Shown here: positions 21,026-26,480 of the stretch, piece after piece | Numbering within the stretch: the first letter of the stretch is position 1 | Layout: the number at the start of each line of letters is the position of its first letter | Virus record (IMG/VR): IMGVR_UViG_3300025767_000098 | Span: 1 to 28,759 of that record | Source of the DNA: a virus | Reading direction: 5' to 3' (one strand) | Length of the DNA: 28,759 bases | Notes under the pieces: model-generated | Seen by the model: only the letters and a program-made list of their open reading frames with translations | What the model was told of the DNA's origin: nothing | The model's database searches: none | Position numbers and translations under genes: made by a program

Positions 21026-22072
21026 TTATCTGCCCTGCCTTATTTCTTTCTTAGTAACAATCGTATCTTCTACAAATGTTAGATTAATTGTGACGCTGTA
21101 GGGAGCATTTGTGTCTTCGAAGAAGTAGGCTCCTCCTTCGCCTGTGTAGTTAACTTGAAAATCAGTTAAGATTGAATCACCTATCTTAAATAGATAATCG
21201 CCGGCTCGTAAAATAATCTGGAATTGTGACGGATACTTGAATACGTGATTAGCGGATGTATATTCTGGAGCCATGTGATACTTAAAGTTACGAATTAGAT
21301 CCCTTATCGCATCACTTTCTTGTTTATTTTTAGCTATAAGCTTATAACTAAATTGATGCTGTCTGAAGTTTACTCCAGTAAACACGTTTGCAAGATGTGG
21401 GTTACGCGCAATACCAAGGCCTCGTAATGCCCCAGCGCCAATAGATCCAAGACCAGCGGCCGCAGCTGCGCCCGCTGTACCACCTACCAGTATACCGGCA
21501 AGAACCTGAGCTGCAGTATCTGCGCCGGCAGCTGCAATACCAAGACTTGATAATGTTCCTTTTAGATTGCTTGCTGACAGTACATCAGACTTGTCAATGG
21601 CGTCAAATATATCCTGGGTTATTGAGCCAGTACCTCGAGTGAAGTTTTCAGCTACCTGTCTACCTGCTTGCCCGGCTGAGCCGAGATCGATATTATTGTA
21701 CTGAGCATTATATGACGTAGATAGATTTGACGGGATCGGCAATGCAAAGGAGTGAGCAGGTTGTGAAATATCTATTCCAAAGCTTTCTAATTTCTGTGCA
21801 AAGCTGCCTATCGCATTAATACCCGCCTTCACTTTATTAAAAAAGCCGTCTTGCGTAGTACGATTCGAACCTGCTAAGTCGGAGGCCTCGCTTGCATAGT
21901 TGACTTTAACATCAGCTAATTCTGATACTTTATATTTTTTTGTTGCTCTAAATATAATAAAATACGGAGCCTCAGAAAGATCGCTTGGAAAGTAGGTGGT
22001 ATCGTACTTTGCACCTATCTCTAGTGAGGCGAGTGGACCTTCGGCTCCAGTACCAAAATTAATAGTAGGCAT
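21026..22072 (-). CDS. 48: Baseplate tail tube cap gp48-like
   Basis: A 348-aa protein; T4 gp48 has 364. The C-terminal half is a tail-tube-type fold: FRQHQFSYKLIAKNKQESD, then IRDLIRNFKYHMAPEY, YPSQFQIILRAGDYLFKIGD and the final SVTINLTFVEDTIV strand. About residues 190-225 form a Gly/Ala-rich segment (GTAGAAAAAGLGSIGAGAL) between the N-terminal part and the tube domain. gp48 and gp54 start tube assembly on the hub. The ATG at 22072 has a GGGA ribosome site and is separated by 10 bp from the divergent gene 4. The alternative gp54 label is disfavoured because a better gp54 candidate lies at 23124. Confidence 0.72.
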   Translation of the reverse strand: MPTINFGTGAEGPLASLEIGAKYDTTYFPSDLSEAPYFIIFRATKKYKVSELADVKVNYASEASDLAGSNRTTQDGFFNKVKAGINAIGSFAQKLESFGIDISQPAHSFALPIPSNLSTSYNAQYNNIDLGSAGQAGRQVAENFTRGTGSITQDIFDAIDKSDVLSASNLKGTLSSLGIAAAGADTAAQVLAGILVGGTAGAAAAAGLGSIGAGALRGLGIARNPHLANVFTGVNFRQHQFSYKLIAKNKQESDAIRDLIRNFKYHMAPEYTSANHVFKYPSQFQIILRAGDYLFKIGDSILTDFQVNYTGEGGAYFFEDTNAPYSVTINLTFVEDTIVTKKEIRQGR

Positions 22073-22082
22073 TTTTTATCCC

Positions 22083-22520
22083 ATGAATACGTATAAAGGC
22101 TATTACAAACCTAAGAATCCTAGTAAATATTTAGGCGACCCTACAAATATTGTTTATAGAAGTTCGTGGGAGCGTCAGTGCATGCTTTATTTTGATAGAA
22201 ATGATAATGTAGTTAAGTGGGGATCTGAAGAGATAGTTATTCCTTATCGATCTCCTCTAGATCGAAGAGTGCATCGGTACTTTGTAGACTTCATTATTAA
22301 GGTGAGAACTACAAAAGGAGATTTAGAGACTCACTTAATTGAAGTTAAGCCGTATAAGCAAACAAGGCCGCCTAAAATCCCGTCTAGAAAAACAAGAAGG
22401 TATCTTAACGAGGTAACTACTTACCTTGTTAACGAAGCAAAGTGGAAGGCTGCTAATGAATACTGCGCAGACAGGCGTTGGAAGTTTCAGATTATAACTG
22501 AAAACGAGCTCGGAAGATAA
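22083..22520 (+). CDS. 4: Head completion protein gp4
   Basis: A 145-aa protein, against 150 in T4 gp4 (50/65). It shows the family's core: NPSKYLGDPTNIVYRSSWER, then VKWGSEEIVIPYRSPLDRRV, HRYFVDFIIKV, HLIEVKPYKQTRPPK and the NEAKWKAANEYC helix. The E / D / E-x-K pattern (E of SWER, D of YFVDF, EVK) is that of TnsA-like endonucleases, so a nuclease-type trimming role during head completion is plausible. The ATG at 22083 was chosen because the protein then begins as in relatives. An in-frame ATG at 21996 would overlap gene 48 antisense and add unrelated residues. No good ribosome site is visible before 22083. Confidence 0.9.
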   Translation: MNTYKGYYKPKNPSKYLGDPTNIVYRSSWERQCMLYFDRNDNVVKWGSEEIVIPYRSPLDRRVHRYFVDFIIKVRTTKGDLETHLIEVKPYKQTRPPKIPSRKTRRYLNEVTTYLVNEAKWKAANEYCADRRWKFQIITENELGR

Positions 22521-22533: not shown

Positions 22534-23124
22534 ATGGTAGCTTACGTATTCGATACAGTATTAACAAAGGGCATGCAATCTGGCCAGGTACCGGCGCGTT
22601 CTCGTGACGCTAGAGACTGGTATAGAAACGCAGCTCAAAATGTTAATGTAACACCGTCCAGACTCCTTAAAGAGAATAGATCTAAGATGACTACGGGTAC
22701 GGAGCCTGGTACTATGGTTCTGTTTAACTATGACCCGAAAGGTAAAAAAGATCTACCTTACTATGATACCTTTCCATTAATTTTTGTTGTTGGTCCTGCT
22801 GAAGGGGGCTTCTATGGTCTCAATATGCACTATCTACCCTTGAAGCAAAGAGCAATGTTAATGGATGCGCTATATGATTTAACAACTAATAATAGATATG
22901 ATGATAGTACTAAATTAAAATTAAGCTACCAGCTATTGAAAAAAGCTTCATCATACAAATATTTTAAACCGTGCTTCAAGCACTACTTAAACAGACACGT
23001 TAAATCGAGAAAGATGCTTGTTGATTCTGTTGAGTGGGATATTGCACTGTTTTTACCACTGCAAAGATTCCAGAAAGCAAGTGCATCTCAAATATACAGC
23101 GATAGTCTCAAGAAGGTAGGATAA
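22534..23124 (+). CDS. T4-like assembly protein, possibly DNA end protector gp2-like
   Basis: A 196-aa protein with a recognisable core: GTMVLFNYDPKGKKDLPYYD, FPLIFVVGPAEGGFYGLNMH, YLPLKQRAMLMDALYDL, then SSYKYFKPCFKHYLNRHV and DIALFLPLQRFQKAS with a YSDSLKK tail. I associate this core with proteins labelled DNA end protector in marine T4-like phages. In T4, gene 2 neighbours gene 4, which also fits here. The label is from memory and T4 gp2 is longer (274 aa), so it could instead be an unrelated neck or baseplate protein. The end overlaps gene 54 by one base (TAATG). A later Met at residue 14 is a weaker start choice. Confidence 0.5.
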   Translation: MVAYVFDTVLTKGMQSGQVPARSRDARDWYRNAAQNVNVTPSRLLKENRSKMTTGTEPGTMVLFNYDPKGKKDLPYYDTFPLIFVVGPAEGGFYGLNMHYLPLKQRAMLMDALYDLTTNNRYDDSTKLKLSYQLLKKASSYKYFKPCFKHYLNRHVKSRKMLVDSVEWDIALFLPLQRFQKASASQIYSDSLKKVG

Positions 23125-23888
23125 TGGCATTTAACATATCAGATTTTAGAGCTAACGCTACCGGCACAGGTTCTCGCGGCGTATCTAAGCAGGCTCATTT
23201 CGAGCTCGTCATTAATCTTCCGAGAAAAATATTACTATCAAATAGAAGTAAAAAGGCCTACGATAGTCTGCGATTTAGAATTGAATCAGCTGAGCTTCCA
23301 GGCAGAGCAATACAAACAACTAACTATAAGCATACCGGATACGGCCTCACGTCTAAAATAGGATACGATGTAACATATCCAGATGTATCTCTCACTATGC
23401 TTTGCGGAGCGGATCTAGGAGAGAAGAGTCTTTTTCAGGCCTGGCAGAGTTCTGTTATAGGTAATCACAGTCGTAACCAAGATATTAGAAGACATCAGAG
23501 TCTTGGTTACTATGACGATTATACAGCTTCGGTTGGCATACTACAATATGATGATACTGGTAACGTCGTTCACTCCCTCGCGTTAGCAGAAGCGTATCCT
23601 GTCCTTGTTAACTCGTTGCCGCTGTCTTGGGGTAGCGAAGATCTACATAGACTAACAGTTCAGTTCACATATAAGCACTTTATTGAATCTGATGAGCCTT
23701 CAGCTGGTCGTGGTGCGCGTCTGAATACTGCAGGTGCAAGCTTAACCTTTAATAACTTACCGAGCGTAGATGATATATTTGAGGGAGTAGGTCTACCACG
23801 CTTTGGTGAGATACTTAACATTCCTCTCTTTGACACAAACAGCTTTACACTCACTGGAGCATCTGATTTTTCTGGCATATTTGGCTAA
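23124..23888 (+). CDS. 54: Baseplate tail tube initiator gp54-like
   Basis: A 254-aa protein with a tail-tube-type beta fold: FRIESAELPGRAIQTTNYK near residue 50, then YDVTYPDVSLTMLCGADLGE, a FQAWQSSVIG helix, and VGILQYDD, LAEAYPVLVNSLPLSWGSED and RLTVQFTYKHFI strands. The order ELPGR, then helix, then EAYP, then VTFxY, follows T4 gp54, which binds gp48 on the hub and accepts the first gp19 ring. The C-terminal 70 residues (NTAGASLTFNNLPSV onward) look like a separate linker. Positioned before gene 26 and overlapping the upstream gene by one base. T4 gp54 is longer (320 aa). Confidence 0.72.
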   Translation: MAFNISDFRANATGTGSRGVSKQAHFELVINLPRKILLSNRSKKAYDSLRFRIESAELPGRAIQTTNYKHTGYGLTSKIGYDVTYPDVSLTMLCGADLGEKSLFQAWQSSVIGNHSRNQDIRRHQSLGYYDDYTASVGILQYDDTGNVVHSLALAEAYPVLVNSLPLSWGSEDLHRLTVQFTYKHFIESDEPSAGRGARLNTAGASLTFNNLPSVDDIFEGVGLPRFGEILNIPLFDTNSFTLTGASDFSGIFG

Positions 23889-23903: not shown

Positions 23904-24617
23904 ATGTTACCTAATCTCAACCTACCTGAATTTACTACAACCCTACCATCTAACAACCGTGAAGTTCGTTTTAGACCTTTTCTTGTAAAAGAGGAAAAGA
24001 TACTATTAATGGCTCTTGAGGGCGGAGATCCTAAAGAGATTGAAAACGCGGTTATTAGAATATTATGTAATTGCATAGAGTTAACAGAAGAAGAGGTGAA
24101 TGAACTGCCTCCTTTTGATGTAGAGTACTTGTTTTTACAGCTGAGAGCTAAGTCAGTAGATAATATCGTAAGCCTTAGACTTTCACATAAAGACAAAGAA
24201 AAGTGTGATCACGTTACCGAGTATAGTCTCAATCTAAATGATATTAAAGTAGTAACGGATGAGAATCATAGCAATAAGATATTCCTTACCGATACCGCAG
24301 GCGTTGTTATGGCGTATCCATCAATGAGCAGTACGAAAGGTATTGAAGATGCATCTCAAAATTCAGCAGTGCATAGTATGTTTGAAATGATTGCTGCAGG
24401 TATTAAGATGGTATTCGATAAAGATAGTGTATATGAAGATTCGACGCATGAAGAGAAAGTAGAGTTTGTAGAGAATCTTAATAAAAATCAGTTTGAAAAG
24501 ATCTTAGACTTTTATCGTACAGTACCAACGGTGTCGCATGATATTGGTTTCACGTGTGAGCAGTGCGGTGAATCCGAGAGTATTACATTAAGAGGACTGT
24601 CAAGTTTTTTCTTATAG
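23904..24617 (+). CDS. 26: Baseplate hub / tail assembly chaperone gp26 (zero-frame product)
   Basis: A 237-aa protein of the T4 baseplate gp26 family. It begins LPNLNLPEFTTTLPSNNREV, then RFRPFLVKEEKILLMALEGG and the NCIELTEEEVNELPPFDVEY helix, and ends with CEQCGESESITLRGLSSFF. The CxxC near the end suggests half of a zinc site, with C210-type partners unclear. An AGGA ribosome site lies 11 bases before the ATG. The last three codons contain a -1 frameshift heptamer (24605-24611) whose shifted frame leads into gene 51. The stop TAG is at 24615-24617. Position directly before the 51-like ORF and the tape measure matches the place of tail assembly chaperones (G/GT) in other phages. Confidence 0.85.
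   Translation: MLPNLNLPEFTTTLPSNNREVRFRPFLVKEEKILLMALEGGDPKEIENAVIRILCNCIELTEEEVNELPPFDVEYLFLQLRAKSVDNIVSLRLSHKDKEKCDHVTEYSLNLNDIKVVTDENHSNKIFLTDTAGVVMAYPSMSSTKGIEDASQNSAVHSMFEMIAAGIKMVFDKDSVYEDSTHEEKVEFVENLNKNQFEKILDFYRTVPTVSHDIGFTCEQCGESESITLRGLSSFFL
24605..24611 (+). promoter_or_regulatory. -1 ribosomal frameshift slippery heptamer T TTT TTC
   Basis: It reads X XXY YYZ with the zero-frame codons AGT TTT TTC. The first T is the third base of AGT, so the phase is correct. After a one-base slip the ribosome reads CTT ATA GGG CTC and continues without a stop to the 51-like Met and the TGA at 24791. The zero frame stops six bases after the heptamer at TAG 24615. Confidence 0.8.
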
Positions 24618-24793
24618 GGCTCAGTCATAACAGTCTAGCAAATATGTATCATACTAACTTTTCCCTGATGCAGCATCATAAATATTCGTTGACTGAGCTC
24701 GAAAACATGATACCATTTGAGAGAGATCTTTATGTACTAATGCTTGTGTCTTACCTTAAAGAGCTAGAAGAGAAGCGTAAACAGAATGGATGA
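24611..24793 (+). CDS. 51: gp51-like baseplate hub assembly ORF, probably made as a -1 fusion to gp26
   Basis: The -1 frame is open from 24611. Its first Met is at 24644, giving a 49-aa product: MYHTNFSLMQHHKYSLTELE, then NMIPFERDLYVLMLVSYLKE and a charged end (LEEKRKQNG). This MQHHKYSLTELENMIPFER pattern is typical of gp51-like hub assembly proteins and of the T half of tail chaperones. There is no Shine-Dalgarno before 24644, which favours entry by frameshifting from gene 26; the fusion would be 296 aa (236 + 60). It overlaps the tape measure start by 8 bases (ATG at 24786, TGA at 24791). T4 gp51 is independent and longer, so the fusion is an inference. Confidence 0.78.
   Translation, partial: LIGLSHNSLANMYHTNFSLMQHHKYSLTELENMIPFERDLYVLMLVSYLKELEEKRKQNG
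24617..24700 (+). promoter_or_regulatory. Stem-loop downstream of the frameshift heptamer
   Basis: GGGCTCAGTCA (24617-24627) pairs with TGACTGAGCTC (24690-24700): 11 bp with one G-U. The stem begins five bases after the heptamer. The 62-nt loop contains a further 5-bp hairpin, TGATG/CATCA at 24666-24678. The spacing and strength suit a stimulatory structure for -1 frameshifting; a pseudoknot is possible but not proven by eye. Confidence 0.65.
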
Positions 24794-26480
24794 GTCAAAT
24801 AAACTTTTAGAAGTTATTCATAATGATCAGCTGAGCATGAAGGAAGAAATCCAGGCAGGTAATGCTGAACTGGATAAGATCCTTACCGTTCTTACTGATC
24901 AGTTTACGTTTACAAAAGATCTGGCTAATATAGAAGCTCTACGATCACAGACTGAGAGCTTACAAGAGATAGAGCGACAGCAGGAAGAGGCTAGAAGCGC
25001 AGGAGGTCTTTCACCTGCTATAGAGAGAGCTGAAGCATCTACTAAAGGCTTTTTTGATAATATGGGAAGAGGTATTTTAGGTGGTCTTAGAATGCCAACG
25101 TTCGGCGGAGCTCTTCGTGGCGGTTTGCTTACTGCAATAGGCTTTAAGTTTGGAGATCAGATAGGCGAGTTTCTATCGAGAGAGTTAGATACCATTCTCA
25201 CATCGGCTGGTTTTTCGCAAGACCTCACTGATGCGTTTACTGAAAAGGTTGAAGAATATACTGGACCAGTTCTGATGGGCGCTGGTATCGGCTCATTATT
25301 TGGTCCGAAAGGATTAGTTATAGGTGCAATCGCTGGATACCTTTATAAATGGACAGGGATGGATGAACTGTACAGTGACCTTGAAAAAGCGAGTTCTGAA
25401 GAAGAAAAGCAGAAGCTATGGAAAGAATTTGGCAATAGTCTCATCGACAAGCTTCAAGAAAACCCCGTACCTGCTTTACTGCTCGCCGGCTCATTGTTCG
25501 GTGTTAAGGGTATACTGGTAGCCGGTGTGGCAGGCTACCTTTACGAGTCTCTCGGATTGGAAAGACTCTTCAACGGTGAAGGTCGCAAAGAGTTCGCTAA
25601 TGATATTTACAACGCTGTAATGAATAAGGTTATGGGTACACCAATACCAGGTGCTGACGATAGCACATTCGTAGGACCTCCTGTACCAGGGGCTGAGATA
25701 ACTTCAACCGCAGCTGCAGCTGGAGGTGAAAATAGTTTCCTAACTGACCAGGCTTTAGAGGCCGCTCAGTTTACAACGAGACGTAGATTGCTTGCTAGAG
25801 TAAATAGGGATGTACCGCGAAGTCGTTTCGGTCTTCCAACTACAACCGTAACTTCTACGTCTGAGCGTGCTGCTAGAGAAGGTGCTGAACAGGTAGCAGA
25901 GAATGTCGGTGAGAGAGTCGTTCGGGGTGTCAGAAGTAACGGTGTTGAATATTTCCGTGACACAGCAACAAATAAATTTATTGGTAGAGAGGCTGCTGAA
26001 CAGATACTTGAAACCGGTGGTAGAGAGGTTGCAGAACAAGCTGCAGAGACAATTGCTGTTACTACAACAAAAACGATTGTAAAGCATCTTCCATTTGGAA
26101 TCGGATTAGCGTTTAGTGTCCCTTTCGCGATAGGCCGAGCTATGAAAGGTGATTATGTAGGTGCTGGCTTAGAGCTAGCAGAAGGTCTTACCGCTGCTAT
26201 CCCAGGATACGGTACTGCCGCATCATATGCTATTGCTGGCGGGTCGATGGCTAGAGATATTAGCAGAGAGCTCGGCGGAACAGGGGTCATGGAGCCTGCT
26301 GTAGGTACTAATCAATTAGCTCCGTTAGCGGCAGATCTACAAGGCGCTTCTACAATAAACGCCAGAGGCGGTGATACTACGATCATTAATAATAATACCA
26401 ATATGTCTAGTGGTGGATCTGGTACTACTAATCTGCCAAGCGCTAAAGTAAGCGACGGATATATCGCTGGTCGTATATAA
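24786..26480 (+). CDS. 29: Tail tape measure protein (gp29-like)
   Basis: A 564-aa protein; T4 gp29 has 590. Residues 1-70 form a helical, coiled-coil-like N-terminus. Residues 87-125 are Gly-rich (GFFDNMGRGILGG). A duplicated hydrophobic unit follows: about 161-195 (GSLFGPKGLVIGAIAGYLYK) and 229-262 (GSLFGVKGILVAGVAGYLYE). A linker with GAEITSTAAAAG leads to an Arg/Glu-rich helical region (about 330-430), another hydrophobic stretch (PFGIGLAFSVPFAIGRAM) and a Gly/Asn-rich tail (IINNNTNMSSGG). Helical content, hydrophobic segments and position right after the chaperone pair 26/51 support a tape measure. Its stop overlaps the terminator hairpin region. Confidence 0.78.
   Translation: MDESNKLLEVIHNDQLSMKEEIQAGNAELDKILTVLTDQFTFTKDLANIEALRSQTESLQEIERQQEEARSAGGLSPAIERAEASTKGFFDNMGRGILGGLRMPTFGGALRGGLLTAIGFKFGDQIGEFLSRELDTILTSAGFSQDLTDAFTEKVEEYTGPVLMGAGIGSLFGPKGLVIGAIAGYLYKWTGMDELYSDLEKASSEEEKQKLWKEFGNSLIDKLQENPVPALLLAGSLFGVKGILVAGVAGYLYESLGLERLFNGEGRKEFANDIYNAVMNKVMGTPIPGADDSTFVGPPVPGAEITSTAAAAGGENSFLTDQALEAAQFTTRRRLLARVNRDVPRSRFGLPTTTVTSTSERAAREGAEQVAENVGERVVRGVRSNGVEYFRDTATNKFIGREAAEQILETGGREVAEQAAETIAVTTTKTIVKHLPFGIGLAFSVPFAIGRAMKGDYVGAGLELAEGLTAAIPGYGTAASYAIAGGSMARDISRELGGTGVMEPAVGTNQLAPLAADLQGASTINARGGDTTIINNNTNMSSGGSGTTNLPSAKVSDGYIAGRI

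Follow-up and report, generated by a model that had tools for sequence, protein, structure and literature searches.

A conserved slippery heptamer and a selected -1 reading frame point to a G/GT-type tail assembly chaperone locus at gene 26 of an uncultivated phage

Gene 26 and the open reading frame that follows it in the -1 frame almost certainly constitute a single tail assembly chaperone locus of the G/GT type, expressed with -1 ribosomal slippage, in an uncultivated marine T4-like phage represented by 28,759 nucleotides of viral DNA (IMG/VR record IMGVR_UViG_3300025767_000098; this whole stretch is referred to as the window). Gene 26 (23904..24617, + strand) encodes a protein of 237 amino acids, the putative short form of the chaperone (TAC-N, lambda gpG-like), and ends with TAG at 24615-24617. 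The T domain lies in the -1 frame (24611..24793, + strand) and would be read from base 24611 after the slip; gp26 and the T domain together make up the predicted long form (TAC-NC, gpGT-like), which ends with TGA at 24791-24793. Most ribosomes are expected to stop at TAG 24615 and release the short form, while a minority, positioned on T TTT TTC with one tRNA-Phe in the P site and another in the A site, would slip back by one base and go on in the -1 frame to TGA 24791, producing a form of 296 amino acids that ends in a short T domain. If the lambda model applies, the tape measure protein may be coated by many copies of the short form and few of the long one, and tail tube subunits may be recruited by the T domain. 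A frameshifted G/GT-like pair had been proposed in a first-pass annotation made from the letters alone, and the proposal is supported here by the conserved in-phase heptamer, by selection on the -1 frame and by the homology of the fusion to T4 gp51.

The gene 26 frame reads TCA AGT TTT TTC TTA TAG at 24600-24617, with the codons AGT TTT TTC TTA TAG at 24603-24617. Direct reading confirms that the slippery heptamer T TTT TTC (24605-24611, + strand) is in the phase of gene 26, as the first-pass annotation had stated; the heptamer ends one codon (TTA) before TAG rather than the two codons given there. The -1 frame is without a stop from 24572 to TGA 24791-24793, in agreement with the earlier description of an open frame up to TGA 24791, and the lengths of the predicted slip product and of unslipped gp26, 296 and 237 amino acids, were both reproduced. 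The first ATG, GTG or TTG in this frame, open from 24572, is the ATG at 24644.

The heptamer and its phase were followed through three samples of IMG/VR contigs, gp26 serving to choose two of them and the T domain the third. Every readable locus of the three sets (79/79, 82/82 and 78/78) has T TTT TTN in phase, with C, T or A as its last base, and in all three sets it is followed by the conserved -1 frame peptide. The set of 82 includes two KVP40-like loci (L263 and L264) that came from a separate scan, and the third sample has nine loci whose gene 26 stop lies more than eight codons past the heptamer. The samples overlap; pooled, they contain 213 different 160-nt sequences, and presence of the heptamer was a condition for being counted. 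The cultured phages Aeh1, ValKK3, S-PM2, phiM19, IG49 and Astolliot also carry the heptamer, and it is absent from the T4-type phages RB32 and MIZ5. The alignment of relatives that had been suggested as a check shows a conserved heptamer, a conserved phase and a -1 frame that is always open, and within the cyanophage-like set there is no relative in which the heptamer is lost while both reading frames are kept.

A separate group of loci has a different arrangement. In Ackermannviridae (Kuttervirus and Limestonevirus) and in Vibrio phage K471 (loci L265-L282, L089, L093 and L090), gp26 is followed by a T-like reading frame in the -1 frame, and an XXXYYYZ heptamer is absent. Stop and start overlap as TAATG in Limestonevirus and K471, the Kuttervirus-type loci have TAATTT, and T_TTC before the gene 26 stop is common to the Kuttervirus, Limestonevirus and K471 loci.

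The -1 frame encodes a recognizable and selected peptide. The T domain matches phrog_634, 'baseplate hub assembly catalyst' (E 1.1e-24), and matches the C-terminus of the phrog_150 profile more weakly; no Pfam model matches it. In relatives, conservation of the -1 peptide starts with the heptamer. The pN/pS values were compared on either side of the first Met position that is commonly conserved: ahead of it, the -1 frame has 0.34, the 0-frame 1.34 and the +1 frame 5.3, and past it the -1 frame has 0.08; overall, the 0-frame ranges from 1.34 to 1.84 and the +1 frame is above 5. Purifying selection acts on the -1 frame peptide from the heptamer on.

Translation of the T domain as an independent small gene, starting at an internal ATG or through reinitiation downstream of the gene 26 stop, would agree with the GenBank cyanophage records that annotate a separate 'baseplate hub assembly catalyst, gp51', with a GGAGG-like sequence shortly 5' of the gene 26 stop, and with a -1 frame ATG near the junction in 31/69 loci. 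However, in 29 of the 69 loci the stretch from the preceding -1 stop to the conserved block contains no ATG, GTG or TTG, and the first Met is scattered across loci from index 4 to index 57, so that many relatives lack a usable start for the second reading frame. The -1 frame residues between the heptamer and any Met are conserved, and an internally started protein would not keep them; the GGAGG, located about 10 nt 5' of the heptamer, is too distant to serve any common start; and the heptamer itself would be left unexplained. In the window, the ATG within the T domain (24644..24646, + strand) is not at a conserved Met position and is not a supported start. The first-pass annotation had described it as lacking a ribosome site, and its anti-Shine-Dalgarno pairing is indeed almost nil (-1.1 kcal/mol versus a median of -4.0 for 15 window genes), although several real genes of the window are equally weak, which makes the poor site weak evidence by itself. 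Taken with the relatives, we consider an independent T gene very improbable.

Two further explanations do without ribosomal slippage. RNA polymerase could slip on the T run, so that a changed number of U residues in some transcripts fuses the frames, and runs of seven to eight T in some relatives would suit such a process. The window, on the other hand, has exactly six T and then C, as do 96/163 representatives, which is shorter than the 9-base runs of bacterial cases (PMC5009743), and the codon phase T TTT TTN never varies, a constraint that polymerase would not need; this explanation appears somewhat less probable still. The heptamer might instead be a by-product of Phe-Phe in gp26 within an AT-rich genome, with a -1 reading frame open by chance, given that FF is conserved in gp26 and that Phe is more often encoded by TTT than by TTC (0.74 of Phe codons). 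From the amino acids and the pooled codon usage, xxT TTT is expected in 29.6 of 69 loci that were not chosen by the heptamer, and it is found in all 69; the corresponding values for 163 representatives (<80% identity) are 74.6 expected and 163 observed, a count that is not independent because this set was selected by the heptamer. Three relatives with TTT TTA (Phe-Leu) retain the T run, and the -1 reading frame is under strong purifying selection and homologous to the C-terminus of T4 gp51. The by-product reading is refuted by the selection test, and its probability is close to nil.

With ribosomal slippage as the preferred reading, the cyanophage T domain, which is routinely given as a separate 'baseplate hub assembly catalyst gp51' or left out, should be annotated as a -1 extension of gene 26. 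In many cyanophage records (e.g., KJ019069, KF156339 and NC_027132) gp26 is the sole feature under the T domain match, so the domain appears to be unannotated there; other cyanophage records list it as a separate gp51.

The relationship to T4 gp26 and gp51 places the two forms in a known protein family. The window gp26 is a full homologue of the T4 gp26 family, PF12322 T4_baseplate (E 8.5e-59, residues 8-236), and also matches phrog_150, 'baseplate hub'; it is about 40% identical to its nearest cultured relatives. A look for a second, full-length PF12322 gene with the T domain in frame gave one match only in the 28.8-kb record, which is a fragment. In profile comparisons, the alignment between T4-type gp51 and the predicted fusion runs from one end to the other, across the junction (244 columns, E 1.7e-20), and T4 gp51 matches gp26 (E 5.3e-20). 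PF12322 spans residues 1-201 of gp51 and the T domain corresponds to the remaining tail; the last ~50 residues of T4 gp51 align with the T domain alone (hhalign, E 1.5e-9). The name "51-like" given earlier to the -1 reading frame is correct in that this frame is homologous to T4 gp51, but the homology covers only those last ~50 residues, and the whole of gp51 is the counterpart of the fusion. As judged by these profiles, T4 gp26 and gp51 are paralogues within PF12322, and since gp51 corresponds to the fusion from end to end, T4 has a distinct gene in which the long form is encoded in frame. T4-type phages thus obtain the long form from a second gene, and the phage studied here, as predicted, by slippage. 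In the T4-type phages RB32 and MIZ5, genes 26 and 51 lie on opposite strands, and unlike in the window the short and long forms are two paralogous genes with no heptamer.

The AlphaFold model of gp26 has a pLDDT of 91. When the model was searched against 350,542 PDB chains, the HK97 tail assembly chaperone 2ob9 ranked first and fourth, the first match having a probability of 0.94, a target TM of 0.56 and an E of 0.41; because of this E value, the resemblance of the modelled fold to the HK97 chaperone is no more than suggestive. The named viral matches of the model are mostly 'baseplate hub' proteins of the gp26 type. A PDB sequence search with the gp26 profile gave nothing relevant, and NCBIfam gave no hits.

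The sequence upstream of the slip site carries a second conserved signal. Heptamers made of a T run slip less readily than A AAA AAG in E. coli (PMC5009743), and for this reason only a low slip rate would be expected unless slippage is helped. A position-specific anti-Shine-Dalgarno scan of the 163 representatives has a peak centred ~10 nt before the heptamer, where the pairing energy is -5.78 kcal/mol versus -4.08 for synonymous codons (p 1e-11, an optimistic value because related loci are not independent). Glu is encoded by GAG in 33/46 cases versus 11.1 expected. As far as these codon choices indicate, a GGAGG-like element ~10 nt 5' of the slip site is under synonymous selection in the relatives, and it may stimulate the slip. 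In the window the element has the weak form GAGG (24592..24595, + strand), a candidate stimulator on the 5' side, 9 nt away from the heptamer. The spacing of 9-10 nt is inside the 9-14 nt range of Shine-Dalgarno elements that stimulate -1 slippage, for which dnaX and many IS elements have been named (PMC5009743). The dnaX signal of E. coli likewise has a Shine-Dalgarno-like element within this range 5' of its heptamer (PMC5009743). It combines A AAA AAG with a 3' stem-loop and reaches ~50% efficiency, and no conserved 3' stem is found here.

RNAalifold on the relatives gave no consensus 3' structure. Complementary arms of 11 bp in the window (24617-24627 with 24690-24700, + strand, within 24617..24700; fold z -2.7) could form a local RNA stem, and as a conserved stimulator this stem was rejected, just three other loci keeping 10/11 pairs. 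A hairpin in some FFY-type relatives was not clearly better than slid controls. We lean slightly towards a model in which the slip in marine T4-like phages is tuned mainly by the internal GGAGG ~10 nt upstream, without a conserved 3' structure. If this is true, the ratio of short to long form would be set by mRNA-rRNA pairing, as in the 5' half of the dnaX signal; the conserved element is a candidate regulator of this ratio and is directly testable.

Slip-made chaperone pairs are not new in kind: the lambda pair is known already, and those of T4-like phages were added in 2022. The lambda gpG/gpGT pair likewise consists of a short protein and a -1 extended long form, and is encoded between the tail tube and tape measure genes. 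The lambda heptamer is G GGA AAG, unlike T TTT TTC in the window, and the gp26 domain is larger than its lambda counterpart and has Cys pairs. A 2016 review describes G-T frameshifting as widely conserved, with T4 as the exception (PMC5009743). Vladimirov, Gautam and Davidson (2022, Virology 566:9-15) identified tail assembly chaperones of T4-like phages, as cited in two later papers (PMC10885494, PMC12846349). The paper on PRFect cites them for T4-like phages with a short gene and a fused long gene (PMC10885494), and the paper on phage Adele for poly-T -1 slippery signals in the short-form genes of T4-like phages (PMC12846349), which belong to the same gene family as gene 26. The Adele-type chaperones of Vandenendeviridae and Andersonviridae resemble the present locus in their poly-T -1 slip, C-terminal domain and position upstream of the tape measure gene, which here is a putative one, and differ in their GTTTTT motif and phage families (PMC12846349). 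The Shine-Dalgarno-like GGAGG ~10 nt before the slip site is an addition of this analysis; a limited literature search found no description of such an element for these phages.

Directly 5' of gene 26 is a tail-tube-family gene of the gp19/gp54 type (23124..23888, + strand; PF23849, E 5.9e-10, phrog_45 and phrog_3629). Downstream is a 564-aa gene (24786..26480, + strand) with its ATG inside the end of the T domain; it is a putative tape measure gene, as suggested by its position and by weak tape-measure PHROG matches of the genes at the corresponding position in ValKK3 (a Vibrio phage) and phiM19 (a Sinorhizobium phage). The order of gene 26, T and a long gene is common to S-PM2, Aeh1, ValKK3 and Astolliot, and phiM19 and IG49 have an extra small reading frame before the long gene. 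Residues 377-493 of the putative tape measure protein match endolysin/peptidase PHROGs, as does its S-PM2 counterpart. Elsewhere in the window, a head-closure gene (21996-22520, + strand; phrog_218) has a TnsA-like endonuclease domain (PF08722, E 1.1e-23), and two adjacent 196-aa reading frames (1011-1601 and 1601-2191, - strand) look by eye like 2-oxoglutarate/Fe(II) oxygenases.
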